Source: Sinohyriopsis cumingii
Lineage: Eukaryota; Mollusca; Bivalvia; Unionida; Unionidae
Assembly: GCA_028554795.2 (NCBI GenBank)
Contig: CM068828.1
Span: 10,301,314-10,365,313, forward strand
Reading direction: 5' to 3'
Length of the DNA stretch: 64,000 nucleotides
How positions within the stretch are numbered: position 1 is the first letter of the stretch; every line of letters starts with the position of its first letter. Below, one piece after another: positions 18,195 through 38,503 of the stretch. Under the pieces are notes generated by a model. That model was not told the DNA's origin, did not search any database, and saw nothing but the letters and a program-made list of their open reading frames with translations. Made by a program: the position numbers and the translations under genes.

Positions 18195-18638
18195 AGTAGT
18201 ATATGGGGATCTTATAGGGTCTATGGGATTTATCATTACAGACCCCCTTGGGAACATATAGGGTCTATGTAAATTTAACATGGAGAAAAATCGTGGGAAC
18301 ATATAGGGTCTATGGGAATTAACATGGCCAAAAACCCTGGGACAATATAGGGTCTATGTAAATTTAACATGGAGAAAAATCGTGGGAACATATAGGGTCT
18401 ATGGGAATTAACATGGCCAAAAACCCTGGGACAATATAGGGTCTATGTAAATTTAACATGGACATAAACCCTTGGGACTGTATAGGGTCTATGTAAAATT
18501 GAAACAGGGAGGGTCTCTATTTTTTTTAAAATAAAATAAAAAAATAAAATAAAAAATAAAATAAAAAAAGGGGTAGGCAATTCAAAGACTATCTCTTTTC
18601 GAGAAATATGGCTGGCCCTGAAAAGGGCCTTTGGGTTT
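18195..18638 (+). repeat. Left terminal inverted repeat
   Basis: Matches the reverse complement of about 38080-38497. It contains seven copies of ATAGGGTCTATG in a loosely tandem 45-55 bp array, an A-rich tract (18520-18567, longer than in the right TIR) and, at its inner edge, the histone-type stem-loop of the leftmost gene. Confidence 0.95.
18614..18629 (-). promoter_or_regulatory. Histone-type mRNA 3' stem-loop for the leftmost gene
   Basis: On the minus strand this is GGCCCTTTTCAGGGCC: a perfect 6-bp stem and TTTC loop, preceded by CCCAAA and followed by AGCCA and, 14 nt after the stem, CGAAAAGAG. This fits the metazoan histone stem-loop (flanks CCAAA and ACCCA) plus histone downstream element. 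It lies 22 nt after the stop codon of the 78-aa gene and inside the left TIR. Confidence 0.8.
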
Positions 18639-18650
18639 ATGTTAATGTAT

Positions 18651-18887
18651 TCATAAACATAAATGGCACCGCATTGGTCTTCTTCTTCTCCTTAGGCTGC
18701 GTCTTACTGTTGGTCCGTACATCAGCACTCTTTTCAGGCATCCTTGTCTTTCCACGTAGATCCTACGTATCCACAGGCTGGTGTTTGTCCTGTGGACAAC
18801 GGTCCACTTCGATCGGACATACATAAGCAAGTCTGTCCGAAACATCATGGAAGACACAAGGGTGGATGACTCAACTGTAGTCCACAT
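18651..18887 (-). CDS. Small arginine-rich basic protein (leftmost gene)
   Basis: A 78-aa protein starting MWTTVESSTLVSS. The C-terminal half is strongly basic (RRIYVERQGCLKRVL, then RRSLRRRRRPMRC) and ends in a CxxC pair, which suggests nucleic-acid binding or a protamine-like or core role; that is inference. The frame is recognisable in the older copy at 11478-11735, which supports it as a real gene. A TATAAAT box lies about 40-50 nt upstream (18927-18940), and the gene is divergent from the coiled-coil gene across a 219-bp spacer. Its 3' end has a histone-type stem-loop within the TIR. No family is recognised. Confidence 0.65.
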   Translation of the reverse strand: MWTTVESSTLVSSMMFRTDLLMYVRSKWTVVHRTNTSLWIRRIYVERQGCLKRVLMYGPTVRRSLRRRRRPMRCHLCL

Positions 18888-19106
18888 CTTGAAGCGACGA
18901 GAATAGGTGAATCAATGCAGTGAACGGCGCTTATTTATAGGGACAGGAGGGATTGAAACGGATTGAGTTCATTCACCAATCCGAACACGCGTTACAGAAT
19001 TCAGTCAGCCCGCATCCAATCCGAAGAGAGCAGTCTGTGACGTCACGTAGTCAATATAGATTCGCTAACGCTTGTGTGCAGTCAATCTATGCGACAGTGA
19101 TTCAAC
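18888..19106. promoter_or_regulatory. Bidirectional promoter region
   Basis: The spacer between divergent genes contains a minus-strand TATAAAT (about 18932) and CG-containing palindromic-like sequence with GTGACGTCAC near 19036. GTGACGTCAC contains a CRE/ATF-type TGACGTCA. The older copy has the same GTGACGTCAC at about 11309-11318, so the site is conserved between copies. Confidence 0.5.
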
Positions 19107-19691
19107 ATGACGGAAACTCAGAAAACGATCCATTGGGCTGCACCAGCAGGGGAGACTGCCCAAGGGAACTCGGACTTACTTTCAGAAGAAGTGAATTGGG
19201 ATTTTGTGGATTTTCTCTCCTCGCAAGAATTTGTTCCGGAACCTTCGTTACCTTCTTCATTACCGCAAGTGGAGAATTTTAGACAGAGACAGAAAGAAGA
19301 ATTGGAGAAATTTATGCAACGACAAAAGGAAGCGGAACAAGCTTTTCTCCTACAGCAACAGCAACAAGAAGAAGAGGTAAGAAAAAAACAACAGCAGCAA
19401 CAACAAGAAGAAGTAACAGCAAAGAAACAAGAGGGTGAAAATGAAACGGCCACGGTACTGTTGGACATTTTAGCGGAGTTAAGAAGTCTGAAACAAATGT
19501 ATCAGACTTCTTTATCACGACCGAAGAGAATACGACCTTCCCGAGCTAAACACGTTAACCCTGTGACTAAGCCTACCGTACCACCCTTAGTGATTTCAAC
19601 CCAATCATTATCATCATCATCAACATTACGCAGTCCAGAAGTAGGCCTTGGCCGTGGCAAAGGCATAAGGCAGTTAAAGTTGATTGCTTAA
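19107..19691 (+). CDS. Glutamine/glutamate-rich coiled-coil protein
   Basis: A 194-aa protein starting MTETQKTIHWAAP. Residues about 30-50 have an acidic/aromatic stretch (LSEEVNWDFVDFL). Residues 55-115 form a long charged coiled coil with glutamine tracts, then TATVLLDILAELRSL continues heptads. The C-terminal third is basic and serine-rich (SRPKRIRPSRAK). The homologous broken gene is at 10829-11204. A coiled-coil scaffold or DNA-associated role is possible, but no family is recognised. It is followed 27 nt after the stop by a histone-type stem-loop, with an AATAAA further on (about 19790). Confidence 0.7.
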   Translation: MTETQKTIHWAAPAGETAQGNSDLLSEEVNWDFVDFLSSQEFVPEPSLPSSLPQVENFRQRQKEELEKFMQRQKEAEQAFLLQQQQQEEEVRKKQQQQQQEEVTAKKQEGENETATVLLDILAELRSLKQMYQTSLSRPKRIRPSRAKHVNPVTKPTVPPLVISTQSLSSSSTLRSPEVGLGRGKGIRQLKLIA

Positions 19692-19718
19692 ACTCACCCC
19701 TACATCGTAAAGAAAAAA

Positions 19719-19734
19719 GGTCCTTTTCAGGGCC
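19719..19734 (+). promoter_or_regulatory. Histone-type mRNA 3' stem-loop for the coiled-coil gene
   Basis: GGTCCTTTTCAGGGCC (one G-U pair) followed by ACCCA, exactly the canonical 3' flank. CTCGAAAAGAA follows about 11-14 nt later. A possible back-up AATAAA lies near 19790. Confidence 0.8.
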
Positions 19735-19900
19735 ACCCACATATCTCGAAAAGAAATACAATTTCAATTTGCCAATAACTCAAAACAAAAAATAAACCCC
19801 ACCCATTTTTACCCTTATAGTACGTGCCTGTGTATGAGTGCGTGAGTGTAGCTTCTTATTTTAAAATCAAAACTCAAAGACTCTTACCTTATATCATTCA

Positions 19901-19959
19901 TTTATTCTTTTCTCCATTTTTTACAATCCAATTCACAATTCACAACACAACACTTTAAT
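19901..19959 (-). terminator. Poly(A) signals for the zinc-knuckle gene
   Basis: On the minus strand ATTAAA (about 19954-19959) and AATAAA (19901-19906) follow the stop at 19993. No histone-type stem-loop is present for this gene, in contrast to its neighbour. Confidence 0.5.
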
Positions 19960-19992
19960 AAAAAGTTCATTGATTTCTTCTTTTCTCCTTGT

Positions 19993-20433
19993 TTAGTCTC
20001 TCTGTTTTTTGAATTTCTTCACCGTCACACTCTTTTCCTCTTCTTCCTCCTCGCTTTCTTCCCTTCTTTTTTTCGTCTCCTGTTTCTTTTTCTTCACCTG
20101 TCTGCTTTCTTCCTCTGAAGAATCCCTCTCTTCTTCTGAAGAATCCTTCTTTTCTTCTGACTCCTCTTGTTTCTTTTTTGGGCAATCTGGAGACCAATGT
20201 CCTTTTTCTTTACAATAATAACAGGTATCTTTACTTTTGTCTTTTTTAGCTCCTGTTTTTTGACGGTCTGGACACTCTGAAGACCAATGCCCTTTCTTCT
20301 GACAGATATAGCAAGTATCTTGACTTTTATCTCGAAAGGAAGGAGAGTAGTCCGTAGGATGGTCTGAAGAGAATTTTCTAATGACCCCTCGCAAAGCTCT
20401 GACGAAACGTTCCATCTGGTTAGTCTCTTCCAT
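19993..20433 (-). CDS. Two-zinc-knuckle (CCHC) protein with charged tail
   Basis: Two CX2CX4HX4C knuckles are present, CYICQKKGHWSSEC and CYYCKEKGHWSPDC, separated by a lysine-rich linker. They are followed by a long acidic/basic tail with repeated SSEEE blocks. This is the zinc knuckle known from retroviral nucleocapsids and cellular RNA-binding proteins, so single-stranded nucleic-acid binding is likely. The start is taken at the internal ATG (20433, MEETNQMERF). The upstream ATG at 20481 is only about 10 nt from a TATATAAAA box (about 20490-20500), too close to be in the mRNA. The gene is divergent from the polymerase. A broken copy is at 9822-10307. Confidence 0.75.
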   Translation of the reverse strand: MEETNQMERFVRALRGVIRKFSSDHPTDYSPSFRDKSQDTCYICQKKGHWSSECPDRQKTGAKKDKSKDTCYYCKEKGHWSPDCPKKKQEESEEKKDSSEEERDSSEEESRQVKKKKQETKKRREESEEEEEEKSVTVKKFKKQRD

Positions 20434-20567
20434 CGTTGTGCTCGGCTTGAGAGTGAAATGAATAGTGAAAGGACAAGACACACACCCTTTTATATACGCT
20501 GGTCTGCTATGACTATAAAGTAGTTCATGGTGTTTGAACTTGAGTCATTTGACTTTTTGCTTTCAAG
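20434..20567. promoter_or_regulatory. Divergent promoter between zinc-knuckle and polymerase genes
   Basis: Only 134 bp separate the inferred starts. A TATATAAAA on the minus strand (about 20490-20500) and ACTATAAAG on the plus strand (about 20511-20519) face opposite ways. The older copy keeps the same arrangement around 9780-9820. Confidence 0.6.
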
Positions 20568-23500
20568 ATGAAACGATCCCATTCATTCGAGAAGAAAGAA
20601 GAAGAAAGTAAGAGGCAGAAACGTGATCTATCGCCTCGTACCAGGGCTGAAATATTGACACAAATTCATGCCAGTGATTTTGAAGAGGACATGAGTGAAC
20701 CAGAATCCGAACCCTCTAAACCAAGTCCACCACCCTTTGTCAACCCTGAAAAGTACTATTCCATTCGAGAGACGGAAAAGCGCTCCTCTAGAAAATTTAG
20801 AACCACGGCTTACAAATACACGGTGAAGTTTAAAGATTTCAAGTCCGAAGTACCGTTAGAGAAAGCAGAAGGGTTCATCACCGGAGTGTGGGATTCTCTG
20901 CTCACTGCACTCAAGCGACAATGTCAACCCAAAGAAGACGATCGCTTGAGACTTTCCATACAACACGACGGTTTGAAATCCCCTGTTTGGATCGAGTTTA
21001 GCACCCCTGCAGAATTGACCGCTTCCAAAGTCATGGACAAGATTCAACACGTGCAACAATCTAATGACCAGTTTGACATCACCGATGGAAAAGCCACATT
21101 GGACATGACCCACGTCTCTCCTCCTCAAGGGACCGGACGCAAAAAGATGTTATTGGTGAACGACCTTCGCAGCATTAAGCGTAGCCTTGTCCAAATTCAC
21201 AATCCTCATGACCAGATGTGTTTAGCCCGTGCCATCGTGGTGGGACGAACCTATGCCAACAAGAACGACACGGTAGAATGGAAAAGAGACTGGGAGAACA
21301 TTCGACAATCGGACCGAGCCAAACAACGAAGTGAAGCAGAACTCCTGTTACGACAAGCTGGCATGTCCAAAGACACACCCTGTGGCATTCCTGAGATGCA
21401 AAAATTGCAAGATGCCCTAGCTCCACGATACACTTTGAAAGTGCACCCTCAAGAAGTGCGCGGGTCTCTGTTGTTTCGAGGGCAAGATTTTAAGGACGGA
21501 AAATACATTCATGTTTATCATCACGATGACCATTTCGATACCATTACCAGTATCACCGGATTCCTAGGATACGGTTATTACTGTGAGAAATGTGACCATG
21601 GTTATAATAATCGAGAGCAACACAAGCATTGTGGATCGAAATGCTCAGGATGTTTGGCCTCTTCACCCTGTCTGAGCGAAGAACCAGTGCCTTGTTCCAC
21701 TTGTCTGCGCACGTTTGTCAGCCCTACCTGTTACCAACAACATCTGAAAACGCAAGGTTCACAGCAGAAATGTGCTTGTCAACTCCTGAGATTGTGCCCT
21801 ACGTGTGGACAAGGCATACGTACCAATAGTACCAAGGCACACGTATGTTCAGGAAAAAAGAAATGTCACATTTGTCACCACATCGTGGACTTGGAACACC
21901 AATGTTACGTGCAAAAATACCAGCCCCCACCAGAGAAAGAGGACGGTCACAAGAAGAAAGGCAATTTCATCTTTTTCGATTTCGAATGCATGCAAGAGAC
22001 TGGCATTCACATTCCTAATTTCTGCGTGGCTCATCGAGCGTGCGAGAAGTGCATTCAAGAACCTATCTTCAGTCATTGCCCTCACTGCAGCAAGATTCCT
22101 GGAGGGCGTGAAAAAATCTTTCGGGGGCCAAACACGTTAGCCGATTTTGCCCAATGGGTCTTAGACCCCATCGACAAGACGTGGAGCCAAGAGGACATCG
22201 GACTTTACGGAGATTGTCATCGTCATGCCACGGTGATGGCTCACAATTTCTCCGGATACGATGGACAGTTTCTTTTGAGGTACTATACGGAACAAGGCAC
22301 CGAGCGTCCTAAAGTGACTTTGAACGGAGCCAAAATCATTTTCATGCAAGTGGGACAAGTACAGTTTAAAGATTCGATGAGCTATTTGGCCATGCCTTTG
22401 AGTCGAATGCCTAAAACGTTTGGAATGACAGAAATGGCTAAAGGGTACTTTCCACACTTTTTCAATACGGAAGCCAATCAACATGCCGTTCTACCCCATT
22501 TGCCTGAGGCTCACTATTACGACCCCAACAACATGCGTACCGAACAACGAGAAGCTTTCTACGCTTGGTACCAGATTCACGCCTCGGACCCTTTCGACTT
22601 TCAGGAAGAAATGCTAAAGTATTGTCGTTCCGACGTGGACATTTTACGGCGTTGCTGTGGAAAATTTCGAGAACTGTTCATGGAACACGGAGGGGTCGAT
22701 CCTTTGAAAGAAGCTTGCACCATTGCCAAAGCGTGTTCCTTAGTGTACCGCCAACGATTCATGCCTGAAAATACCGTGGCTGTCATCAGTCCTCAAACGA
22801 CCCACTATGTCAAGCGTCAATACTCGGTCAAAGCCCTACGTTGGTTACATTACTTGTGCGACAAGGAAGACAAGTGGATTCAGCATGCCCGCAACGGAGG
22901 GGGTGAAAAGACCATCGGAACGTATTCGGTCGATGGCTGGGACTTAGAAAACCCCAAGATCGTGTACGAGTTTAACGGTTGCTTATTTCACGGATGTCCC
23001 GTTTGTTATCCTGACCGTGGCACTAAAAATCAGTTTTTGCAACGAACCATGGAAGACTTGTACCAGGACACTTGTCAGCGACGCCTAAAGTTAGAACAGC
23101 AAGGATACCAAGTGGTGGAAATGTGGGAACACGAGTACGATCACCGTATGAAAACCGATCCCGAGTTTAAACGCCTCGTGGAAAGTTACCAGTTCATGGA
23201 CCCGCTAAACCCGAGGGATAGTTTGTACGGAGGAAGGACCAATGCCACCTGTTTGCTGTACCAAGCCGACGAAGAGAACGGAGAAGAAATCAAATACTTG
23301 GACGTGTGTTCGCTGTATCCCTACGTGTGCAAATATTGTCGCTTTCCTGTAGGGCACCCGCAATTGTTCACGGAACACATCGACCTGGTCAACATTCGAC
23401 AATACGAAGGCTTGATCAAGTGTAAAGTTTTGCCTCCCACGAACCTATACCATCCCGTCTTACCTCACCATTGTCAAGGCAAACTGATGTTTCCCTTGTG

Positions 23501-24629
23501 CCGTACTTGTGCCGAAACGTGCAACCAAGACCAGCCTTGTCATCACAGCCAGGAAGAACGGGCCTTGACCGGAACCTGGGTCAGCGTAGAATTGTTCAAA
23601 GCTCTGGACATGGGATACCAACTGTTAGAAGTGTACGAAATTTGCCACTTTCCCAAGACACAACAATACCACAAGGGTGACCCCACTCAGAAAGGCATTT
23701 TCGCAGACTACGTGGATGCCTTTTTGAAACTGAAGCAAGAAGCCAGTGGCTATCCTTCCTGGTGTCACACTCCCGAAGACCAAATACAATTCAAAGAGAA
23801 ATACTACGAACAAGAAGGCATCACTTTAGACCACATCGAGAAAAACGAAGGCAGGCGATCGTTTGCCAAAGTGATGTTAAATTGCTTGTGGGGTAAAATG
23901 GCACAACGCCCGTGTTTACCCAAGACGGAATATTTGACAGAACCTTCCCGCTACTTTCAGATGATTCACGACAAAACCAAATTCATGAAACACGTGGACA
24001 TCGTTCGCGAGGATTTGATCTTAGTCAATTACGAAGAAGATCTGGACTTTGTACAAGACGACCCCTTTGGAAATGTCATCATTGCGGCTTACGTGACAGC
24101 CCATGCTCGCTTAAAATTGTACGAAGCTTTAGAACTGTTAGAAGAACGCGTCCTGTACTTTGACACGGACAGTTGCATTTACATCCATCACCCGATTCAA
24201 CATCACCCTGACATCGAAGGAGACCGTTTAGGAGCCTGGACAGACGAGCATCCCGACGACAAGATTCTAAGTTTCGTCAGTGGCGGTCCCAAAAATTACG
24301 GCTACGAATACCGGGACAAACAAGGAGAAGTGCACACGACGTGCAAAGTGAAAGGACTGACTCTGAATTATCGTACCAGTCGAGTGGTCAACTTTGGGGT
24401 ATTGAAAGAAGCCTTGCAATCGGAAGAGGATGGAAACTTTAAAGTGACCACCTATCAACCGAACAAGATTGTACGTTTACCCACTCACCACATCGTCAGT
24501 CGACCCTTGGAAAAAGTCTATCAAATCGTGTACCAGAAGCGAGTGCGACTTCCCAATCACTTTACGTTACCGTACGGTCACGTCGGTATTGGTCTGTATA
24601 TAAAAAGGAACCCTAGACAAGATCGATAG
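20568..24629 (+). CDS. polB: Protein-primed family B DNA polymerase
   Basis: A 1353-aa polymerase that would replicate the linear element from a terminal-protein primer. An N-terminal region of about 330 residues is followed by a cysteine/histidine-rich zinc-binding region (about 339-458). The exonuclease motifs are FDFE (D471, E473), HNFSGYD (N560, D565) and YCRSD (Y685, D689). The polymerase motifs are DVCSLYP (D912-P918), KVMLNCLWG (K1101-G1109) and YFDTD (Y1197-D1201). Between exonuclease and polymerase, residues 801-811 (EFNGCLFHGCP) resemble the core of a Vsr-type endonuclease fold, as in other Polinton polymerases. All catalytic residues are present. The older copy has the same N-terminal start. 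Confidence 0.95.
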   Translation: MKRSHSFEKKEEESKRQKRDLSPRTRAEILTQIHASDFEEDMSEPESEPSKPSPPPFVNPEKYYSIRETEKRSSRKFRTTAYKYTVKFKDFKSEVPLEKAEGFITGVWDSLLTALKRQCQPKEDDRLRLSIQHDGLKSPVWIEFSTPAELTASKVMDKIQHVQQSNDQFDITDGKATLDMTHVSPPQGTGRKKMLLVNDLRSIKRSLVQIHNPHDQMCLARAIVVGRTYANKNDTVEWKRDWENIRQSDRAKQRSEAELLLRQAGMSKDTPCGIPEMQKLQDALAPRYTLKVHPQEVRGSLLFRGQDFKDGKYIHVYHHDDHFDTITSITGFLGYGYYCEKCDHGYNNREQHKHCGSKCSGCLASSPCLSEEPVPCSTCLRTFVSPTCYQQHLKTQGSQQKCACQLLRLCPTCGQGIRTNSTKAHVCSGKKKCHICHHIVDLEHQCYVQKYQPPPEKEDGHKKKGNFIFFDFECMQETGIHIPNFCVAHRACEKCIQEPIFSHCPHCSKIPGGREKIFRGPNTLADFAQWVLDPIDKTWSQEDIGLYGDCHRHATVMAHNFSGYDGQFLLRYYTEQGTERPKVTLNGAKIIFMQVGQVQFKDSMSYLAMPLSRMPKTFGMTEMAKGYFPHFFNTEANQHAVLPHLPEAHYYDPNNMRTEQREAFYAWYQIHASDPFDFQEEMLKYCRSDVDILRRCCGKFRELFMEHGGVDPLKEACTIAKACSLVYRQRFMPENTVAVISPQTTHYVKRQYSVKALRWLHYLCDKEDKWIQHARNGGGEKTIGTYSVDGWDLENPKIVYEFNGCLFHGCPVCYPDRGTKNQFLQRTMEDLYQDTCQRRLKLEQQGYQVVEMWEHEYDHRMKTDPEFKRLVESYQFMDPLNPRDSLYGGRTNATCLLYQADEENGEEIKYLDVCSLYPYVCKYCRFPVGHPQLFTEHIDLVNIRQYEGLIKCKVLPPTNLYHPVLPHHCQGKLMFPLCRTCAETCNQDQPCHHSQEERALTGTWVSVELFKALDMGYQLLEVYEICHFPKTQQYHKGDPTQKGIFADYVDAFLKLKQEASGYPSWCHTPEDQIQFKEKYYEQEGITLDHIEKNEGRRSFAKVMLNCLWGKMAQRPCLPKTEYLTEPSRYFQMIHDKTKFMKHVDIVREDLILVNYEEDLDFVQDDPFGNVIIAAYVTAHARLKLYEALELLEERVLYFDTDSCIYIHHPIQHHPDIEGDRLGAWTDEHPDDKILSFVSGGPKNYGYEYRDKQGEVHTTCKVKGLTLNYRTSRVVNFGVLKEALQSEEDGNFKVTTYQPNKIVRLPTHHIVSRPLEKVYQIVYQKRVRLPNHFTLPYGHVGIGLYIKRNPRQDR
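24597..24606 (+). promoter_or_regulatory. TATA box of the BIR gene, inside the polymerase 3' end
   Basis: TATATAAAAA lies 56 nt before the ATG of the next gene and within the last codons of the polymerase ORF. Confidence 0.55.
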
Positions 24630-24661
24630 TTCATTGTGACTACCAAGACCGAGCAAACAAG

Positions 24662-25405
24662 ATGAATACTTTGAAAGAGACATCGTTCCAGTTTGGGGAT
24701 TGTAAAAAAGTTGTATCTTCCTCTAGTGTGACTAATATTGGATGGATAAGACCCAGGCATTGCGACGGAAAATGTCCGGAAGGAAACTGCGATTGTCCAT
24801 GTGGTTACCATTGTAATTGCGTCACGGAGTTTGCAGACGAGTGCGATTGTGAGCCTTGCGATGGATACGATGCTGTACGTTGTGACCTGAGCGATGCCGT
24901 AAAGCATCATGGGAACTTTAGTGCCCCTACCCCTATCATGGAAAGTGATGCTGTGCGTGTCAAACCTGTCGGATGCGAAAGTGATGCCGCTCGTCCTCTT
25001 GGACATTTTACTGGGTTTCGTTTTAAAGGGGAATGTTCACCTTCACGTCTACCCCCCTACGGATGTCATCCAGCCTTGAGCAAACTCCTACCCATGTCAC
25101 TCAACCCTCATCGAAACGAACCTGTGAAAAACGAATATTCGTTTCCTGTGCGTTTGTCGGAATACTGCGACTTTGAAAATCGTCTTCAATCGTTCAAAGG
25201 AAAATGGCCAAAGTATCTGGGAGGACCGACCCCCGAAGAATTAGCCAGAGCCGGATTTTTCTACTTGGGCGAAGGAGATAAAGTCAGGTGCTTCAGTTGC
25301 GATGTGACACTTCACCACTGGGAACCGCAAGATTCGGCCTACGTAGAACATGCTCGATGGTCACCGAATTGTCATTACTTACCCTTAGTGGGACCGAGAC
25401 ATTGA
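24662..25405 (+). CDS. BIR-domain (IAP-like) protein
   Basis: A 247-aa protein. The C-terminal 75 residues form a BIR domain (baculovirus IAP repeat): RLQSFKGKW, AGFFYLGEGDKVRCFSC, then C210 and C213, H230 and C237 in CX2CX16HX6C spacing. BIR domains bind zinc and, in IAP proteins, caspases or IAP antagonists, so suppression of host cell death is the likely role; that is inference. No RING or CARD follows. The N-terminal third has a cysteine-rich cluster (CDGKCPEGNCDCPCG) of unknown function. It may be a captured host gene, and it sits between the polymerase and the F-box-like pair. Confidence 0.85.
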   Translation: MNTLKETSFQFGDCKKVVSSSSVTNIGWIRPRHCDGKCPEGNCDCPCGYHCNCVTEFADECDCEPCDGYDAVRCDLSDAVKHHGNFSAPTPIMESDAVRVKPVGCESDAARPLGHFTGFRFKGECSPSRLPPYGCHPALSKLLPMSLNPHRNEPVKNEYSFPVRLSEYCDFENRLQSFKGKWPKYLGGPTPEELARAGFFYLGEGDKVRCFSCDVTLHHWEPQDSAYVEHARWSPNCHYLPLVGPRH

Positions 25406-25433
25406 AGTAACTTCTTACCATAATAATCTGTTC

Positions 25434-25889: not shown

Positions 25890-25901
25890 TATGACCTATT
25901 C

Positions 25902-26589: not shown

Positions 26590-27090
26590 ATGGTCACGAA
26601 AAACTCCTTTTGCTCAAAGCCTTGCGTTTTCATCTGGATACTTCTCGACCTCTACGGGAAAAAAAGATTCGTCAACTTTTAGCGACCCAAGACGTGTATG
26701 ACGATGTGTGTGTAGCTTGTGACTTACATCCCCATTGGACAGATGTCCGTGCCTGGAAAGAATGGGATTTTGAGGCTTGGACCCAAGAAGTGGCCCAGTA
26801 TGCACGAGAGTTGTTCAAGGAAAAAAGTTACTTTTCAACCCGTGTTAGTGACGGTGCCAGAAGAACCCGTCACCCAGGACAGGACTGTCGTGGACAGACC
26901 TGAAAGACCCTTTTGGGAGGACACTTGTGTGACCTTACCCCCTGTTGAACTGGTTAGAACATTACCCAAAAGATGTGATTGTTGTACAGACACTTGTGTT
27001 TATTCCACGTTCATCGTTATCATGTGCCTTTTATCCTTGTACTTAAGCCTTTGGCTTTTATGTATTTTTGTCTTTCGTATTCATGTTTGA
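26582..27090 (+). pseudogene. Membrane-anchored protein apparently split by a frameshift in an A6 run
   Basis: Frame 1 (ATG 26582, ALNGHEKLLLLKAL...) is protein-like to about 26820 (AWTQEVAQYARELFKE), then becomes arginine/glycine-rich nonsense. The next frame over becomes protein-like exactly there (KVTFQPVLVTVPEEPVTQD), has a CDCCTDTC cluster and ends in a strong membrane helix (VIMCLLSLYLSLWLLCIFVF) before the stop at 27088-27090. The run AAAAAA (26821-26826) is the likely indel site. It is either a recently broken gene, an assembly error or a +1 frameshift signal. Function unknown. Confidence 0.5.
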
Positions 27091-27124
27091 TAAAAAAACA
27101 TTCAATAAACGTGTTCTGAAAAAG

Positions 27125-27132
27125 TATATAAA
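27125..27132 (+). promoter_or_regulatory. TATA box of the packaging ATPase gene
   Basis: TATATAAA lies 47-54 nt before the chosen ATG at 27179. Because of it, the upstream ATG-like start at 27068 is unlikely to be in the mRNA. Confidence 0.6.
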
Positions 27133-27178
27133 CTCTTGTCTTGTTTGTTTTCGTGTCACAAGTGACATTTCTCACACC

Positions 27179-27934
27179 ATGGCTACCTCTGCTGTCTCTG
27201 CTCCCTCTTCCTCTACTGTCAAAGTCATCGACGAACACTTAGATCGTGCCAGTTGGGAGGCTTTGTATCTTCGCCATCCCTTTAACATGCTCATTGCTGG
27301 ACCTAGCGGTTCAGGCAAAACCGAATTCGTCAAACGTTTGATCGAACATAAACATCATTTGATCGATCGACCCCCTCAACGGATCGTGTGGTGTTACAAA
27401 GAGTGGCAATCGGCGTACAGCCTCTTGCGAGAAAGTCAAGGCGATTCCATCGTGTTTGTGGAAGGCATTCCTAAAGAAGACGACGGCATCGTCTCTGACT
27501 CCCGTCAAACCCATTTGGTCATTTTCGACGACATGTTAGGAGAAGACGAAGAAGAAATTAAATTGTGGTTCACGCGCAAAGGGCATCACCGTAATGCCAG
27601 TGTCATTTACATCACCCAAAATTTGTTTCAACAAAGTAAAGCCCATCGCACCATCAGTCTCAATGCGCATTACGTGGTCTTGTTTAAAAGCCCTCGAGAT
27701 AAATCGCAAGTGCAAGTCTTAGCCAAACAGTTAGGAACGCCTTGGCTGACTCAGGCGTACGACGATGCCACTCAAACGCCACACGCCTATTTACTCGTCG
27801 ATTTGAAACCTACGACCCCCGAGGATTTGCGATTTCGTACCCACTTGTTTCACCACTGGTGCCAAGACGGAGGGCCTGTCCTGTACACGTCTCCGTCCTC
27901 GACTTCATTTCACTCCCCATCAAAAAATCTATAA
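27179..27934 (+). CDS. FtsK/HerA-type genome-packaging ATPase
   Basis: A 251-aa P-loop ATPase. The Walker A motif is GPSGSGKT (41-48) and Walker B is LVIFDD (113-118). These are followed by a conserved YITQNLFQQ region (sensor/arginine-finger area) and a C-terminal segment with HHWCQDG. This is the A32-like family shared by Polintons, virophages and NCLDV, which pumps DNA into capsids. The start at 27179 (MATSAVSAPSSS) is preferred because of the TATA box. The stop codon is overlapped by the TATA box of the next gene. Confidence 0.9.
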   Translation: MATSAVSAPSSSTVKVIDEHLDRASWEALYLRHPFNMLIAGPSGSGKTEFVKRLIEHKHHLIDRPPQRIVWCYKEWQSAYSLLRESQGDSIVFVEGIPKEDDGIVSDSRQTHLVIFDDMLGEDEEEIKLWFTRKGHHRNASVIYITQNLFQQSKAHRTISLNAHYVVLFKSPRDKSQVQVLAKQLGTPWLTQAYDDATQTPHAYLLVDLKPTTPEDLRFRTHLFHHWCQDGGPVLYTSPSSTSFHSPSKNL

Positions 27935-29638: not shown

Positions 29639-29686
29639 AAAGGCCTCGGAAGTTCCAAGATCTCAGAATCGACCCCTGACAACCCC

Positions 29687-30391: not shown

Positions 30392-30403
30392 CACAGCAAA
30401 AAA

Positions 30404-31513
30404 ATGGAAAAAGTCTTAGCTAGCATTTACTACGATCCCTCGCATCCTGCAGGTTACGCAGGAGTTCAAAAATTGTATCGTGCTGCCAAAACGCGACTGA
30501 AAAGTCTCCGTTTACCTCAAGTGCAACGATGGTTACAAGAACAAGCTACCTACACTTTACACAAACCCATTCGACGCAAGTTTGCCAGAAGTCGCACCCG
30601 AGTGGAAGGCATCGATCATCAATGGCAAGCCGATTTAGCCGATGTCTCTCATTTGGCCAGCTACAATCGTGGCTACAAATATCTGTTTTGTGTCATCGAC
30701 GTCTTTTCCAAATTTGCCTGGGTCGTACCCTTGACTTCCAAATCCAGCAGCGAGTTAGTGCGAGCCCTGCAACGAGTGTTGAAACAAAGCGGCCGTCACC
30801 CTCTTCGATGGCAAACGGACAAAGGCACCGAATTTCTGAACCAAGCTTTCCAAAAAGAATTAAAGAAACGTGACATTCATTTTTTTACCACCGAGAATCC
30901 CGAAACCAAAGCCAGCATCGTGGAGCGTTTTCAACGCACTTTGAAAGAACGCATGTGGAAATATTTTACGCATCACCACACTCTGAAGTACATCGACATC
31001 TTACCGCACCTGGTGCAAGCGTACAACCAATCTTACCATCGAAGCATCGGACGTGCCCCGCAAGACGTGACTCCCGACAATGAAGTGTTGGTGTTTGAGC
31101 GTCTGTTCGGTACGTCCCCGACGAGGGCTGTCCCCAAGAAAAGTGGAGAGTTGGCCGTAGGAGATTGGGTGCGCATTGGCAAAACCAAACGCACTTTCGA
31201 CAAAGGTTACTTACCTAACTGGACGACCGAATTGTTTCGCGTCACTGGACGAGTGCATGGCCGTCATCCTGCCGTCTATAAATTGGAAGACATGAACGGA
31301 GAAGTGCTCAAAGGAACGTTTTATTTGCCCGAGTTACAACGTGTCACCAAAAAAGAAGACGACGTGTACGACATCGAAAGCATTCTCGAACGCAGAACCC
31401 GTAAAGTGGGCAAACGACGTGTCAAAGAAGTCAAAGTACGTTGGAAAGGATATCCACCCAGTTTCGATTCTTGGATCGACGCTTCGCAAGTCATCGACTA
31501 TAAAAAGAAGTGA
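30404..31513 (+). CDS. int: Retroviral-type integrase (DD35E) with C-terminal chromodomain
   Basis: A 369-aa integrase that would join the element's 3' ends to host DNA and create the 6-bp duplication. Catalytic residues are D77 (WQADLADV), D139 (QTDKGTEF) and E174 (SIVERFQRT), giving DD35E spacing. The N-terminal domain is short and its HHCC motif is unclear. Residues about 316-369 form a chromodomain (VYDIESILERR, VRWKGYPPSFDSW), which in other elements tethers integration to methylated histone H3; that targeting is inference here. The stop is followed at once by the next gene. Confidence 0.95.
   Translation: MEKVLASIYYDPSHPAGYAGVQKLYRAAKTRLKSLRLPQVQRWLQEQATYTLHKPIRRKFARSRTRVEGIDHQWQADLADVSHLASYNRGYKYLFCVIDVFSKFAWVVPLTSKSSSELVRALQRVLKQSGRHPLRWQTDKGTEFLNQAFQKELKKRDIHFFTTENPETKASIVERFQRTLKERMWKYFTHHHTLKYIDILPHLVQAYNQSYHRSIGRAPQDVTPDNEVLVFERLFGTSPTRAVPKKSGELAVGDWVRIGKTKRTFDKGYLPNWTTELFRVTGRVHGRHPAVYKLEDMNGEVLKGTFYLPELQRVTKKEDDVYDIESILERRTRKVGKRRVKEVKVRWKGYPPSFDSWIDASQVIDYKKK
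31499..31507 (+). promoter_or_regulatory. TATA-like box at the integrase 3' end
   Basis: TATAAAAAG lies just before the integrase stop. It is about 12-20 nt from the ATG at 31519, so it is closer than at other genes and could serve downstream genes instead. Confidence 0.3.
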
Positions 31514-31518
31514 CCATC

Positions 31519-32852: not shown

Positions 32853-32859
32853 GTAAGTC

Positions 32860-33276
32860 ATGTATCCAGTGTACCGAGGGGTGGCTCGACAGCGAGGACA
32901 CGGTTTAGGAGACATGTTAAAATCGGCCTTTCGTTCGGTGGTCCCGGTGTTGAAACCGATGGTGACACGCGGATTGCACGCCTTGAAAGATGCGGCACTG
33001 ACGCAAGGCAAAGAATTTCTCCAAAATGTCATCATCGACAAACAAAACCCTAAAGAAGCCTTCATGAGGGCAGGCAAAAATGTCTTGCTGCAAACGGGCA
33101 AAGACATTTTGGGCCGACGAGACACACCTATAAATGCCCTGCACGCTACCGAATCAGCCATTCAGCAAGGACAAGGCAGAAAGAGACGACGACGAAAACA
33201 CCCTTTCACCAGACTTCAAGCGAGAAAGGCCAAGAAAAGAAAAACCGTTCGAGACTTAGACGTTTTCGATTATTGA
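32860..33276 (+). CDS. Basic virion-associated protein (adenovirus pVI-like position)
   Basis: A 138-aa protein starting MYPVYRGVARQRGHG. The N-terminus is glycine-rich, the middle helical (LKDAALTQGKEFLQNV), and the C-terminus strongly basic (GRKRRRRKHP and RKAKKRKT), ending DLDVFDY. This layout between penton and major capsid is typical of Polintons and recalls adenoviral minor core proteins. The function is inferred from position and composition only. Confidence 0.65.
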   Translation: MYPVYRGVARQRGHGLGDMLKSAFRSVVPVLKPMVTRGLHALKDAALTQGKEFLQNVIIDKQNPKEAFMRAGKNVLLQTGKDILGRRDTPINALHATESAIQQGQGRKRRRRKHPFTRLQARKAKKRKTVRDLDVFDY

Positions 33277-33289
33277 GAAAGAGAAAAAA

Positions 33290-34609
33290 ATGATGCACCG
33301 AGAGTCTTGCGCTTGTTCCAAGACGGAACTGGATCTGTTTGCCATGCCCCCCACCATGATGACGATGCAAGAATCCCAGTGGGTGGAATTTCATCCCGTC
33401 TCCTCATTGACAGCCTCAGCTCCCATCGAGTTTGAAATCAAAGGACAGCCCGAAGATTACATCGATCTGAATAGCAGTTACTTGTACTTGAAAGTCAAAG
33501 TTATCGAAGATGACAATTCGCCCCTAGAAAGTACTGATGTAATAGCTCCCGTCAACAATTTCATGCATTCCTTGTTTAGCGGAGTGGACTTGTACTTGAA
33601 TAACAAACTGGTCAGCAGCAGCATGGATACTTACCCTTATCGAGCGTACCTGGAAAATCTCTTGACGTACGGAATAGACGCCAAGAACACTCATCTCGAT
33701 GCCTGTGTGGTATGGGAAGCTGACGATGCTAACGAGTTTGAAACAAAAGAAATTGATACAAAGGATAAAACTAAATCAACAAATGATGGATTTATAGAAC
33801 GAAGAAACAGAATCATAGAAAACAAAAGTTTAGAACTGATGGATCGTTTGCATTTGGACATGTGGTTGCAAGAGAAATATTTGCTGAACGGGGTGGATGT
33901 CCGCCTGAGACTGAATCGGAGCAGTGCCGCGTTCCATTTGATAGGTAATGATGCTTGCAAAACTGTCATCGAGGAAGCCAGGCTCTACGTACGACGCGTG
34001 GAAGTGTTACCTAAAGTGGGTAACGACATCAGTCAAACATTGAGCAGAACAACCGCCAAGTATCCCATACGACGCGTGGAAGTGAAAACGTTCACCATTC
34101 CCAAGGGACAGCGATCCATGATCGAAGATCATTTGTTCCAAGGACAGTTACCCAAACGTTTGATCATTGGTATCGTCGAGAATACAGCCTTCAACGGAGA
34201 TTTAGGTAAAAATCCTTTTAACTTTCATCACTTTGGCGTGTCCAAAATCGAAGTCAGTCGCGATGGCAAGACCTTGTGTACCCGACCTTTCGAGCCTAAC
34301 TTTACCCAGAACAATTACTTGAGATCGTACTTGTCCCTGTACGAAGCCACGGGTCAGTTAGGAACCAACACTAGTCACGGCATTACGTACAAAGATTACG
34401 CAGGAGGCTATGCTTTGTGGGCTTTCGATTTCACTCCAGACCAAGGCAGCGACGAGGGACATTTCCACCCTATAAAATCTGGCCAGATTCGTGTGGAAAT
34501 TCAGTTTAAAGACCGAACCCCTGATGAAACGGTGAACGTCATCCTGTATGCAGAATTCGATAATACCATAGAAATCAACAGTTTGAGAGAAGTCATTCTA
34601 GATTATTAG
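33290..34609 (+). CDS. mcp: Major capsid protein (double jelly-roll type)
   Basis: A 439-aa protein. The conserved N-terminal block (ELDLFAMPPT, WVEFHPVSSL, DYIDLNSSYLYLKVKV) and VNNFMHSLFSGVDLYLN, then TYPYRAYLENLLTYG, are hallmarks of the Polinton major capsid protein, whose double jelly-roll is shared with virophages. The first ATG (33290) follows a run of As, a good context. The ORF is intact. With the penton-like protein, ATPase and protease it makes a full morphogenesis module. Confidence 0.9.
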   Translation: MMHRESCACSKTELDLFAMPPTMMTMQESQWVEFHPVSSLTASAPIEFEIKGQPEDYIDLNSSYLYLKVKVIEDDNSPLESTDVIAPVNNFMHSLFSGVDLYLNNKLVSSSMDTYPYRAYLENLLTYGIDAKNTHLDACVVWEADDANEFETKEIDTKDKTKSTNDGFIERRNRIIENKSLELMDRLHLDMWLQEKYLLNGVDVRLRLNRSSAAFHLIGNDACKTVIEEARLYVRRVEVLPKVGNDISQTLSRTTAKYPIRRVEVKTFTIPKGQRSMIEDHLFQGQLPKRLIIGIVENTAFNGDLGKNPFNFHHFGVSKIEVSRDGKTLCTRPFEPNFTQNNYLRSYLSLYEATGQLGTNTSHGITYKDYAGGYALWAFDFTPDQGSDEGHFHPIKSGQIRVEIQFKDRTPDETVNVILYAEFDNTIEINSLREVILDY

Positions 34610-34614
34610 AAGCC

Positions 34615-35097: not shown

Positions 35098-35115
35098 AGA
35101 AAAAACACAAAAACA

Positions 35116-35676
35116 ATGGATACCTGGGAACTTTATTACCTTTTGAACCACAGTTCGTATACGGCTTCTTGGAATCCTGTCGTCTGTGCTAAAGATGAAC
35201 TCCCTCATCGCAAACCTAAAGACCATCAAGCTTACGTGATCAACACGGACGACAGTCATCTCCCAGGAACCCACTGGGTAGCCGTCTACTTTCCTCAAGA
35301 AGGATGTGTGGAATATTTCGATTCGTACGGATTGCCCCCTTTGGAAGACGATATCATCGACTTTATGAGAAGAAATGCTCAAACCACCCGATTCAATAAC
35401 GTGAAATTACAAGGCACAGATTCCTTGGTGTGTGGACAGTACTGTGTGTATTTTCTGCATCATCGCAGCCTGGGCTATTCCTTAGAACATTTAGTGACTC
35501 ATTTCGATCCTCGTTCTTCTGCTAGAAACGATGTGAAAGTAGATCGATGGTTTTGTGACCATTATGCTTATCTTTTGTCTCAAGCTAGGAAACGTAGTGT
35601 CCATCAATGGCCTAATGATTTCCAACAGTGGAAATCACAATTTCATTCACAACGTTGTCAGCCTTGTTTAAAGTAG
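35116..35676 (+). CDS. pro: Adenain-like cysteine protease (ULP1 superfamily)
   Basis: A 186-aa protease that would cleave virion precursor proteins during maturation. The triad is visible as H53 (GTHWVAVYF), D69 (EYFDSYG) and C106 (VCGQYC), with Q99 seven residues before the cysteine forming the oxyanion hole, as in adenovirus protease. Length is usual for Polinton proteases. The gene starts 18 nt after the previous stop, and an AATAAA (35787) follows it. Confidence 0.9.
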   Translation: MDTWELYYLLNHSSYTASWNPVVCAKDELPHRKPKDHQAYVINTDDSHLPGTHWVAVYFPQEGCVEYFDSYGLPPLEDDIIDFMRRNAQTTRFNNVKLQGTDSLVCGQYCVYFLHHRSLGYSLEHLVTHFDPRSSARNDVKVDRWFCDHYAYLLSQARKRSVHQWPNDFQQWKSQFHSQRCQPCLK

Positions 35677-35786
35677 ATTGTCCATTGAGAAAAAAATGTT
35701 AGTGATATGAAAAAATTGTTTGATGTTATAGTGTTGGATTATTGTTAAAAATGTTAGAGTTGTTGTTTAGTGTTAAGTGATTTTTG

Positions 35787-35792
35787 AATAAA
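35787..35792 (+). terminator. Poly(A) signal after the main gene block
   Basis: AATAAA about 110 nt after the protease stop. It marks the probable common 3' end of the rightward capsid genes, in contrast to the stem-loop ends of the accessory genes. Confidence 0.55.
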
Positions 35793-35918
35793 AAATGTTG
35801 TGTTTTGAAAAAATGCTTTTGTCTTTTGTTTAGCTATAAGAATGTTGAATTGATGCTCTTTCATTTCTTACTATCCCTCTCATGACAATCACTGAACGTT
35901 GCGAATCGAAAACCGTGT

Positions 35919-35957
35919 GGGGGATGTTTTCCTTCACGTCCGCGCTTTCACTATAAG
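35919..35957 (+). promoter_or_regulatory. Shared promoter box, copy 1
   Basis: GGGGGATGTTTTCCTTCACG followed by TCCGCGCTTTCACTATAAG, immediately upstream of the first right-end accessory gene. The same box is repeated at 36780 and 37580. Confidence 0.8.
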
Positions 35958-36011
35958 AACCGGGGTTGTTTCCAGTCTAGCCATCCATTGTCGACTCATC
36001 CTCCTAAGAAG

Positions 36012-36371
36012 ATGTGTTCCAAACTAGCTAAGCTCAACGAAGCCTACGTGAATTTGCATAGGGTCAGACACAGTCTGATACCGAAGCCAGAAGAAATAGA
36101 GAATGTGAGAATGTTAAAAATCACTGAAGACCTGATAGAAGAGCTCTTCAGAGAAGAAGTGAACAGGGAAAAAGAAGAATGGACGGAGAAGTACAGACTT
36201 CAGAGACAGCAGCAACAGCAGCAACAACAGCAACAGCAGCAACAACCTGAAGCTGACAGAGGCTTTGTCGATTGTCGTATCGACACCAAAGAGTTCTTCT
36301 TCTCTTTCCGAAGAAGCAGACCTATCGCCAGAAAGTCTATCCTCAGAGGACATCGCATTCTTAGAAACTAA
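36012..36371 (+). CDS. Right-end accessory protein 1 (helical, glutamine tract)
   Basis: A 119-aa protein from ATG 36012 (MCSKLAKLNEAYVNLHRV). The upstream frame opens only with TTG. The N-terminal helix resembles that of accessory protein 2 (MNTRLEKLLELHVHLEYA). A poly-glutamine tract of 13 residues lies in the middle, followed by a basic C-terminus (RRSRPIARKSILRGHRIL). It is followed 30 nt after the stop by a histone-type stem-loop and downstream AATAAA. No family is recognised. Confidence 0.6.
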   Translation: MCSKLAKLNEAYVNLHRVRHSLIPKPEEIENVRMLKITEDLIEELFREEVNREKEEWTEKYRLQRQQQQQQQQQQQQQPEADRGFVDCRIDTKEFFFSFRRSRPIARKSILRGHRILRN

Positions 36372-36401
36372 AAAAGAATGCCATAGCAAAACAAAAAAAA
36401 C

Positions 36402-36417
36402 AGCCCTTTTCAGGGCT
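36402..36417 (+). promoter_or_regulatory. Histone-type mRNA 3' stem-loop for accessory gene 1
   Basis: AGCCCTTTTCAGGGCT, a perfect 6-bp stem with TTTC loop, followed by ACCCC and AGAAAAGAAG 14 nt later. A possible back-up AATAAA lies at about 36485. Confidence 0.75.
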
Positions 36418-36419
36418 AC

Positions 36420-36779
36420 CCCAATACTCTAGAAAAGAAGTAACGATCGATTTGCCAATGTGTGTGTAGGTAGAGTAGTGTGAAAATAAACACTAACTCT
36501 TTATTGATAGTGAAAGTGTATGTGTTGGTGTGTTTGTGTTTGTAAGAGCTCAAGTAAGTTGGTGTGGATAGTAGATTAAAATGATATCTTTTATTAGTGT
36601 TTGAGGTGTATATTAGGAGTGAGATTGAATTGCTTTGCGTATGTGGATAGTCTATTGAAGTGATTTATAAAAAATTTTAAAATAGTGATGGGTAGCATAA
36701 AAAGTGAGTGTTTCTTTTAGGTCCGCGCGTTGTTGTTTTTTTTGGTCATGATCTAGGTAAGATGAATTTTATGTTATTA
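36420..36779. other. Spacer between accessory genes 1 and 2
   Basis: Repeated in the next cassette: GATCGATTTGCCAATGTGTG and AACACTAACTCTTTATTGAT occur again at about 37305-37365. A partial promoter-like stretch (TCCGCGCGTTGTTG, then GGTCATGATCTAGGTAAGAT) precedes the box. Confidence 0.6.
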
Positions 36780-36818
36780 GGGGGATGTTTTCCTTCACGT
36801 CCGCGCTTTCAGTATAAA
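36780..36818 (+). promoter_or_regulatory. Shared promoter box, copy 2
   Basis: Same box as at 35919 with TATAAA at its end (AGTATAAATT), 54 nt before the ATG of accessory gene 2. Confidence 0.8.
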
Positions 36819-36871
36819 TTGAAACTCGTTCGGCAGTCCAGCTACCCTTGTTGATTGATCAACACCCAAAA

Positions 36872-37234
36872 ATGAACACGAGACTTGAGAAACTGTTGGA
36901 GCTTCATGTGCATCTGGAATATGCCAGGCGCATATTAAATGAACTGGCCGCGGAAGCCATTGTCGAGGAGGGAAGGATAAGAGAGGAGGAAAGAAGAAAC
37001 AAAGAAGAGGAGGAGAGAAGATATAAAGAAGAAGAAGAAAGAAGATATAAAGAGGAAAGAAGAAACAAAGAAGAGGAGGAGGAAAAGGAGAGAAGAAATT
37101 TCAAAATCCCAGAGAGCGAAAATTGGGATTCTGAAGCGACATATCCTGTCTCTGCTCTCTCCCCCCAAAAGGCAAAAAGTAACTGGGGGATAAGATGTGT
37201 ATGTGGCGCCAGGCCTGGAAGGTGCCACCATTAA
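36872..37234 (+). CDS. Right-end accessory protein 2 (long charged helix)
   Basis: A 120-aa protein from ATG 36872 (MNTRLEKLLELHVHL), a paralogue of accessory protein 1 by its N-terminal helix and cassette. The middle is a run of EERR(N/Y)KEEE repeats (RRYKEEEERRYKEE), a typical single-alpha-helix or coiled-coil pattern. The C-terminus has two cysteine residues (IRCVCGARPGRC). Followed 29 nt after the stop by a histone-type stem-loop. Confidence 0.6.
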   Translation: MNTRLEKLLELHVHLEYARRILNELAAEAIVEEGRIREEERRNKEEEERRYKEEEERRYKEERRNKEEEEEKERRNFKIPESENWDSEATYPVSALSPQKAKSNWGIRCVCGARPGRCHH

Positions 37235-37263
37235 CCAGGTGTCCATGAAGTTCCAAACAAAAC

Positions 37264-37279
37264 AGCCCTTTTCAGGGCT
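37264..37279 (+). promoter_or_regulatory. Histone-type mRNA 3' stem-loop for accessory gene 2
   Basis: AGCCCTTTTCAGGGCT followed by ACCCA (the canonical 3' flank) and TAGAAAAGAA at 37291. Confidence 0.8.
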
Positions 37280-37509
37280 ACCCAATACTCTAGAAAAGAA
37301 ATAACGATCGATTTGCCAATGTGTGTAGGTAGAGTAGTGTGAAAATAAACACTAACTCTTTATTGATAGTGGGAGTGTATGTGATTGTGTGTTTGTGTTA
37401 GTAACTAATAAAGTAAGTTTGTGTGAATAGTAGATTATGGGTTTCTTTATTGTTTCTTAGCGTATGTGGAGAGTATAGTTTGGGTTATATTATATGAAAT
37501 GAGAAAAGT

Positions 37510-37618
37510 GGGGATGTTTTCCTTCACGTTCGCGCGTTGTTGGGTCATGATCTAGGTAAGATAGATTTTATGTTTTTTAGGGGGATGTTTTCCATCACGT
37601 CCGCGCTTTCACTATAAT
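37510..37618 (+). promoter_or_regulatory. Shared promoter box, copies 3 (partial) and 4
   Basis: A partial box without TATA (37510-37540) is followed by GGTCATGATCTAGGTAAGAT and a full box (37580-37618) ending CACTATAATA, which lies 50 nt before the ATG of accessory gene 3. Confidence 0.75.
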
Positions 37619-37667
37619 AACCCACAGTGTTCGTTGTTCAAACCATTCTGCAAAGAATAAAAAGAAG

Positions 37668-38054
37668 ATGGCGTCAAACCAAATCGACAAAATTCAAACC
37701 TTGCAAGACGTTTTAGACAACTTAGGAATAATGGAACAGATGCTATTAAGACTGGTTGAAGACCATTATTCCTATAGTCCCCATCGTGTGAAGATGGAAA
37801 TTAATAATTTAAGGAAAGCAAAGGACAAGATTAGTGGTGTCATGAAAGAGATCAAGGAGGAGAAGGAGGATGAAGAGGAAAGAACAAGAATACGCAAATG
37901 GAATGAAAAGATTGAAAAAGAAGAAGAAAATGAAAAGAGAAAGAAAGAAGAGGAGGAAGAGAAGAAGAAAGAAGAGGAGGAGAAGAAAAAAAAGAAAGAG
38001 AAGAAGAGTGTAGGAGATAAAATAAGAACTTGGTGGAGGAAAAGAAGAAATTAG
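37668..38054 (+). CDS. Right-end accessory protein 3 (lysine/glutamate-rich helix)
   Basis: A 128-aa protein from ATG 37668 (MASNQIDKIQTLQDVLDNLG). The N-terminal helix is like the other two accessory proteins in pattern but weak in sequence. Residues 63-110 are a glutamate/lysine-rich helix (EEEEEKKKEEEEKKKKKE), ending in an aromatic/basic tail (IRTWWRKRRN). Its stop is 28 nt from a histone-type stem-loop inside the right TIR. It is transcribed outward, mirror-like to the 78-aa gene at the other end. Confidence 0.6.
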   Translation: MASNQIDKIQTLQDVLDNLGIMEQMLLRLVEDHYSYSPHRVKMEINNLRKAKDKISGVMKEIKEEKEDEEERTRIRKWNEKIEKEEENEKRKKEEEEEKKKEEEEKKKKKEKKSVGDKIRTWWRKRRN

Positions 38055-38079
38055 AAGAAGAAGAAGAAGAAGAAAACCC

Positions 38080-38497
38080 AAAGGCCCTTTTCAGGGCCAG
38101 CCATATTTCTCGAAAAGAGATAGTCTTTGAATTGCCTACCCCTTTTTTTATTTTATTTTTTTAAAAAAAAAATAGAGACCCTCCCTGTTTCAATTTTACA
38201 TAGACCCTATACAGTCCCAAGGGTTTATGTCCATGTTAAATTTACATAGACCCTATATTGTCCCAGGGTTTTTGGCCATGTTAATTCCCATAGACCCTAT
38301 ATGTTCCCACGATTTTTCTCCATGTTAAATTTACATAGACCCTATATTGTCCCAGGGTTTTTGGCCATGTTAATTCCCATAGACCCTATATGTTCCCACG
38401 ATTTTTCTCCATGTTAAATTTACATAGACCCTATATGTTCCCAAGGGGGTCTGTAATGATAAATCCCATAGACCCTATAAGATCCCCATATACTACT
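38080..38497 (-). repeat. Right terminal inverted repeat
   Basis: Reverse complement of the left TIR, including seven ATAGGGTCTATG motifs. Its A-rich (here T-rich) tract is shorter than on the left. The outer end ATACTACT is followed by the GCTATA duplication at 38498-38503. Confidence 0.95.
38083..38098 (+). promoter_or_regulatory. Histone-type mRNA 3' stem-loop for accessory gene 3
   Basis: GGCCCTTTTCAGGGCC preceded by CCCAAA, followed by AGCCA and CGAAAAGAG at 38111. Identical to the left-end stem-loop because both are in the TIR. Confidence 0.8.
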
Positions 38498-38503
38498 GCT
38501 ATA

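Follow-up and report, generated by a model that had tools for sequence, protein, structure and literature searches.

Histone-type 3' stem-loops and upstream elements on the accessory genes of a Polinton in Sinohyriopsis cumingii

The element and its end-proximal genes

The stretch of DNA analysed here, called the window below, is 64,000 nucleotides (nt) long and comes from the bivalve Sinohyriopsis cumingii (contig CM068828.1, positions 10,301,314 to 10,365,313 of the forward strand). Positions 18195-38497 of the window are a Polinton. The element has long terminal inverted repeats (18195-18638 and 38074-38497), a 6-bp target-site duplication and genes for a DNA polymerase B, an rve integrase and an A32-type ATPase, and is therefore assigned to this class. 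Five accessory genes near its ends, here called gene0 and geneA to geneD, carry 3' signals of the kind found on replication-dependent histone genes, and three of them have upstream elements in common with the histone genes of the host. The repeats and the five genes are:

18189..18194 (left) and 38498..38503 (right): target-site duplication GCTATA, read from the sequence
18195..18638 (arms 18195-18549 and 18551-18638): left terminal inverted repeat, from the repeat comparison
38074..38497: right terminal inverted repeat
18651..18887, minus strand: gene0, an open reading frame of 78 amino acids with an Arg-rich C-terminal region; TATA and CCAAT boxes upstream
19107..19691, plus strand: geneA, 194 amino acids, the divergent partner of gene0
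36012..36371, plus strand: geneB, 119 amino acids
36872..37234, plus strand: geneC, 120 amino acids
37668..38054, plus strand: geneD, 128 amino acids

No histone family is among the Pfam matches of the five proteins at E up to 0.1. The matches that were found (P22_portal, MAP7, TAF4, Paf1 and DUF5427) all fall under their own cut-offs. There are two homologs of gene0 and 20 of geneA, the latter with identities of 57-96%. The C-terminus of geneA has a conserved GLGRGKG-like motif. GRGKG is a motif of histone H4 and H2A tails and is visible in the host histone genes (stretch L062); the similarity is perhaps due to chance, though curious in a gene with histone-type control signals. GeneB, geneC and geneD share one repeated layout, consisting of an upstream element, a short charged gene and a stem-loop, in steps of about 0.80-0.86 kb between positions 35923 and 38098. 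The layout looks as if it had arisen by tandem duplication.

Stem-loops behind the accessory genes

Seven sites in the window lie within three mismatches of GGCCCTTTTCAGGGCC, as against a mean of 0.17 and a largest count of 1 in 100 shuffles. The stem-loops behind the accessory genes were scored with RF00032, the histone 3' stem-loop model of Rfam, which has 46 positions and a gathering score of 34:

18614..18629, minus strand: gene0 stem-loop, within the terminal repeat; 35.6 bits, the match (18634-18589) taking in the downstream element
19719..19734, plus strand: geneA stem-loop; 33.8 bits; GAAAAGA downstream, AATAAA at 19791
36402..36417, plus strand: geneB stem-loop with an A-U closing pair; 27.7 bits, under the gathering score
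37264..37279, plus strand: geneC stem-loop with an A-U closing pair; 31.0 bits, under the gathering score
38083..38098, plus strand: geneD stem-loop, within the terminal repeat; 35.6 bits

All five match the model across positions 1-46 of 46, with E-values from 4.5e-7 to 4e-4. The gathering score is reached by only two, which are the two terminal-repeat copies. The distance from the stop codon to the stem is 21 nt in gene0, 27 nt in geneA, 30 nt in geneB, 29 nt in geneC and 28 nt in geneD. A preliminary description of this DNA had placed such stem-loops 22-30 nt behind all five genes; they are present in each case, and the range is 21-30 nt. The 3' flank is ACCCA- or AGCCA-like. The sequence GAAAAGA follows 13-14 nt past the stem at all five genes, within the approximate 11-14 nt given earlier. 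The five stem-loops do not represent five separate cases. Those of gene0 and geneD are one case because both are copies of one terminal repeat. The 3' regions of geneB and geneC are near-identical, apparently by duplication, and the window thus holds about three independent cases.

The scan of the window found no stem-loop at the zinc-knuckle gene, the DNA polymerase B or the protease candidate. The earlier statement that the polymerase and zinc-knuckle genes lack it stands, and for the capsid block it holds for the last gene, the protease candidate. This gene is followed by the expected AATAAA, at 35787.

The folding of four of the 3' cassettes is modestly better than that of shuffled sequences (z of -1.3 to -1.6). 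Across seven cassettes, 97.6% of the cells pair, a share reached by 4 of 500 shuffles, and two stem pairs are changed on both sides.

The 3' signals of host histone genes

The histone genes of the host are arranged in tandem repeats of about 8.3 kb, and their 3' signals were taken from two fetched repeat stretches, L062 and L063. H3, H4, H2B, H2A and H1 each have a stem-loop 27-38 nt past the stop codon, scoring 35.0-39.4 bits with RF00032. The downstream element lies 13-14 nt past the stem and reads GAAAAGA in four of the five types and GAAAAGG in H2A. The last loop base is variable among the host stem-loops, and H1 differs in one stem pair. The H2B stem-loop is identical in all 16 nt to that of the Polinton terminal repeat. 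The layout of a histone mRNA, originally proposed for the accessory genes from the window, is thus found on the genes of the host itself, with nearly the same stem-loop, the same downstream element and the same spacing.

Upon comparison of the Polinton with one host histone repeat by BLASTN, the 3' cassettes aligned with E-values down to 1.6e-10, as did some simple repeats. The terminal-repeat and geneA cassettes are about 78% identical to the 3' end of host H2B over 56-64 nt.

A pattern search of the genome for the U7 RNA gave 14 matches, compared with 12 for the reversed pattern; eight of the 14 places were inspected and none was convincing. Duplex energies were calculated for one U7 candidate, which proved to be at chance level and was not used.

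Sequences in common with the upstream regions of host histone genes

Upstream of geneB, geneC and geneD lie short sequences, all on the plus strand, that are also found upstream of host histone genes:

35923..35946: H2B-promoter-type element upstream of geneB, 23 of 24 positions identical
36711..36731: H4-promoter-type element upstream of geneC, 21 of 21 identical to the host H4 upstream region
36784..36807: H2B-promoter-type element upstream of geneC, 23 of 24 identical
37513..37536: second, weaker H2B-type element upstream of geneD, 21 of 24 identical
37584..37607: H2B-promoter-type element upstream of geneD, 24 of 24 identical to the host H2B upstream region

The 24-bp element is also present upstream of host H1 with one base different (25 of 26 positions in the BLASTN alignment). 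With up to five mismatches allowed, the H2B-type element occurs four times in the window, always in the geneB-geneD region, and not at all in ten Markov sequences. The sharing of these elements with host histone genes strengthens the suggestion that the accessory genes are expressed in S phase.

The divergent genes gene0 and geneA share one promoter region, in which CCAAT and TATA boxes occur. It was likened by eye to the upstream regions of host H3 and H2A, which have both boxes as well, but the resemblance is too weak to claim.

Other copies in the genome

An RF00032 search of the 2.905-Gb genome gave 75 scored matches among many more candidates, and the best 30 of the 75 were fetched. All 30 loci lie in Polinton copies with accessory genes. 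The gene beside the stem-loop was recognisable as gene0, geneA or geneD in 29 of them, the exception being L009; some of the geneD matches are only 22-30% identical. The sequence AAAAG occurs 14 nt past the stem in 29 of the 30.

Because these loci had been picked by stem-loop score, a second sample of copies was drawn by the opposite end, giving 12 left ends and 6 right ends. The end of geneA is present in 6 of the 12 left ends; five of these have the stem-loop and the sixth has lost one stem pair. The end of gene0 is present in 7 of the 12, with the stem-loop in five; L069 and L070 lack it and are disrupted there. Four left ends hold neither gene end. In the right ends, the stem-loop follows geneB in four of four cases (one with a mispair), geneC in three of three and geneD in two of three. 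The likeness stops inside geneD in L079, and L081 has none of geneB to geneD. The protease gene has the stem-loop in none of four cases; by eye, AATAAA lies about 100-130 nt further on in all four and in the window. In these samples too, the stem-loop is thus found behind the accessory genes but not behind the protease gene, as the preliminary description would have it, and in the sampled copies it did not turn up at random positions unrelated to stop codons. In L070 the right end of one Polinton is apparently beside the left end of another: geneB/C-type stem-loops lie at 1526 and 2412, another stem-loop at 3560 and gene0 at 3943-4149.

The promoter pattern GATGTTTTCNNTCACGTCCGCGC was found at 31,228 places in the genome, the host H2B and H1 copies included, and the exact stem-loop pattern RGCCCTTTTCAGGGCYACCC at 33,189 places; the reversed patterns gave none. 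These numbers suggest that the 2.9-Gb genome may hold thousands of Polinton copies. Among the first 100 stem-loops listed, all on contig 1, the closing pair is A-U in 60 and G-C in 40, and neither of the two mixed forms, both of which the pattern would admit, is present. A promoter element lies 413-502 nt upstream on the same strand in 47 of the 60 A-U-closed stem-loops, and on the opposite strand in none, compared with a mean of 0.27 for random shifts. Such an element is found at only three of the 40 G-C-closed stem-loops, in agreement with gene0 and geneA being without it. Conversely, when 200-nt pieces downstream of the first 12 listed promoter elements were examined, nine contained a stem-loop (up to three mismatches) followed by AAAAG.

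A degraded second Polinton

The window contains a further Polinton:

7394..11770, reverse orientation: degraded second Polinton, aligning with the left part of the first over 4460 columns at 77.9% identity

Six pieces of its polymerase can be matched, with identities of 57-81%, the three largest being 70-77% identical. A stretch of 77 amino acids is 74% identical to gene0. Both stem-loop sites are kept in mutated form, at 10578 (minus strand) and 11735 (plus strand). The stretch from the stem to the downstream element is the best conserved part of the gene0 3' region, matching at 29 of 35 positions, compared with 22 of 35 before it and 13 of 35 after it. At geneA the contrast is weaker (26 of 35, with 15 of 35 before and 24 of 35 after).

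Interpretation

The 3' signals on all five genes and the upstream elements on three suggest that gene0 and geneA to geneD are likely to be expressed in the manner of the replication-dependent histone genes of the host.

Several results weigh against this interpretation. The machinery that it calls upon was not found in the genome by searches of low sensitivity: the Rfam search gave no U7, with the controls silent too, and the Pfam search (E <= 0.001) gave no SLBP, the controls again being silent and the SLBP exons possibly split. The upstream elements have BLAST E-values of no more than modest significance (2.3e-4 to 0.05), and in the control with flanking host DNA a microsatellite reached 1.2e-4; the case for these elements therefore rests on identity, position and counts. 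Gene0 and geneA have no H2B-type element. The number of stem pairs changed on both sides in the seven cassettes was reached by 52 of 500 shuffles. The association of promoter element and stem-loop is incomplete: 13 of the 60 listed A-U-closed stem-loops have no exact promoter element, three of the 12 promoter elements that were followed have no stem-loop within the 200-nt piece, and an exact stem-loop lies 300-900 nt downstream of only 50 of 92 listed promoter elements. These pair counts are not independent, since the copies are related. The analysis covers one genome, and no relative was confirmed by scans of IMG/VR, which used the polymerase, the capsid protein and an alignment of 23 capsid rows as queries, or by one scan of GTDB. 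Lastly, AATAAA is present 56-67 nt past the stem in geneA, geneB (67 nt) and geneC (64 nt), with GT-rich sequence next in geneB and geneC, and AATAAA or ATTAAA occurs within 160 nt in nine of the 30 fetched RF00032 loci. The signals behind geneA, geneB and geneC weaken the idea of non-polyadenylated ends and could mark either a fallback end or the main end.

It might be supposed from these signals that the stem-loops are carried along, with the mRNAs receiving a poly(A) tail at the AATAAA further down and with little or no histone-type processing. This is unlikely. Neither AATAAA nor ATTAAA is found within 160 nt of the gene0 and geneD stem-loops in the terminal repeats, and the same is true of 21 of the 30 fetched loci. 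The stretch between stem and downstream element is what the second Polinton has best conserved at gene0, the evidence from geneA being weaker. Moreover, host H4, alone among the five host types within 160 nt, itself carries such a signal 21 nt past its stem-loop.

Another view is that fragments of host histone genes were captured passively, spread by duplication and are not used. The near-identity of the geneB and geneC cassettes would fit it, as would the likeness of the terminal-repeat and geneA cassettes to the end of host H2B. However, the upstream elements match the H2B/H1 type and, once, exactly H4, so that the matches come from at least two types of host gene. Among the 100 listed stem-loops the closing pair is always A-U or G-C and never mixed, and the stem-loop sites are kept in the second Polinton, in which the three largest pieces of the polymerase are 70-77% identical. 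Passive capture is accordingly regarded as very improbable.

Hardly any weight can be given to the notion that the hairpin is a DNA-level signal for replication, packaging or transposition that only looks histone-like, for while two of the five hairpins are inside terminal repeats, the remaining three are found beyond the repeats, on the sense strand shortly past stop codons and with the downstream element of the host, and geneB to geneD also have the upstream element common to host histone genes.

Proposed mechanism

Expression of the accessory genes as histone genes could proceed as follows. In one account of histone mRNA processing, SLBP and the U7 small nuclear ribonucleoprotein (snRNP) bind the stem-loop and the downstream element, and cleavage takes place between them without polyadenylation (PMC9133132). 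On the accessory transcripts, host SLBP would bind the stem-loop and U7 snRNP the downstream GAAAAGA element. Given a stem-loop and downstream element at the spacing of the host, the transcript is predicted to be cut shortly past the stem and to have no poly(A) tail. In geneA, geneB and geneC the AATAAA would provide a fallback end, and the capsid block would be polyadenylated in the ordinary way. The upstream elements may attract the transcription factors responsible for histone-gene expression in S phase. The end-proximal genes would then be made during host DNA replication, which is presumably when an element with nuclear DNA replication needs them.

On balance it seems probable that non-histone genes would in this manner be put into the histone class, by mimicry at both ends, with expression in S phase and no poly(A), and that the approximately 33,000 stem-loops could compete for SLBP and U7 snRNP.

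Relation to known systems

The accessory genes resemble the replication-dependent histone genes of the host (H1, H2A, H2B, H3 and H4) in the stem-loop, its distance from the stop codon, the GAAAAGA element and its spacing. They also resemble them in having upstream elements common to the H2B/H1 and H4 upstream regions. They differ in that the five proteins have no histone domain, that the genes belong to a mobile element dispersed in many copies and that three of them have AATAAA further down. To our knowledge, non-polyadenylated mRNA ends of the histone type are confined to histone genes. In its terminal repeats, 6-bp duplication, polymerase B, rve integrase, A32-type ATPase and capsid and protease candidates the element is like Polintons (Mavericks) and adintoviruses.

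A search of the open-access literature, with subscription journals outside its scope, showed, among the titles listed, none on histone stem-loops in Polintons. The words 'histone', 'stem-loop' and 'polyadenyl' did not occur in the available part of a paper on vertebrate Mavericks (PMC8097293). In that of PMC11071296 'histone' referred solely to histone-like proteins of other viruses, and neither 'stem-loop' nor 'polyadenyl' was present. A word search of PMC9145170 gave no occurrence. The histone H4 of Cotesia plutellae bracovirus, as treated in PMC12819152, is a comparable case, in that a virus acts upon the control of the histone genes of its host. The bracovirus codes for a histone protein, whereas in the Polinton non-histone genes carry the histone control signals. 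According to the same source (PMC12819152), S-phase histone mRNAs are alone among the protein-coding transcripts of animals in not being polyadenylated. If the present reading is true, a mobile element is using histone ends and upstream elements for other proteins, which would time them directly to the S phase of the host. With very many natural variants in one genome, the sequences that define histone-gene control in this host become testable, as does the question whether such a signal load burdens the histone supply.

A single match to the stem-loop pattern in IMG/VR was on a phage-like contig with long overlapping frames, did not give an Rfam match at the gathering score and was taken as chance.

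Other genes and neighbouring sequences

The remaining genes recognised in the element are:

19993..20433, minus strand: zinc-knuckle gene (Pfam zf-CCHC)
20568..24629, plus strand: DNA polymerase B (Pfam DNA_pol_B_2, 2.3e-41)
24662..25405, plus strand: BIR-domain (IAP-like) gene (Pfam BIR, 1.9e-23)
27083..27934, plus strand: packaging ATPase candidate, Pox_A32-like (Pfam, 6.9e-8)
30404..31513, plus strand: integrase with chromodomain (Pfam rve, 2.2e-14; Chromo, 1.2e-7)
33290..34609, plus strand: major capsid protein candidate, from sequence homologs, with no Pfam match
35116..35676, plus strand: candidate adenovirus-type protease, which ends the capsid block (Pfam Peptidase_C5, E 0.0084, below the cut-off)

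A homology search with the capsid candidate gave 1332 relatives at E <= 0.001. Among the 120 of them that were listed, 14 rows carry an organism name, of which 13 are bivalves and one is a Thiodiazotropha metagenome-assembled genome. The BIR-domain gene inside the Polinton is a possible apoptosis inhibitor.

Repeats with a 28-bp step at 17956-18194 run up to the left end of the element and take in its target site. At 50927-53004 of the window there are open frames which we take to resemble a hAT-type transposase.

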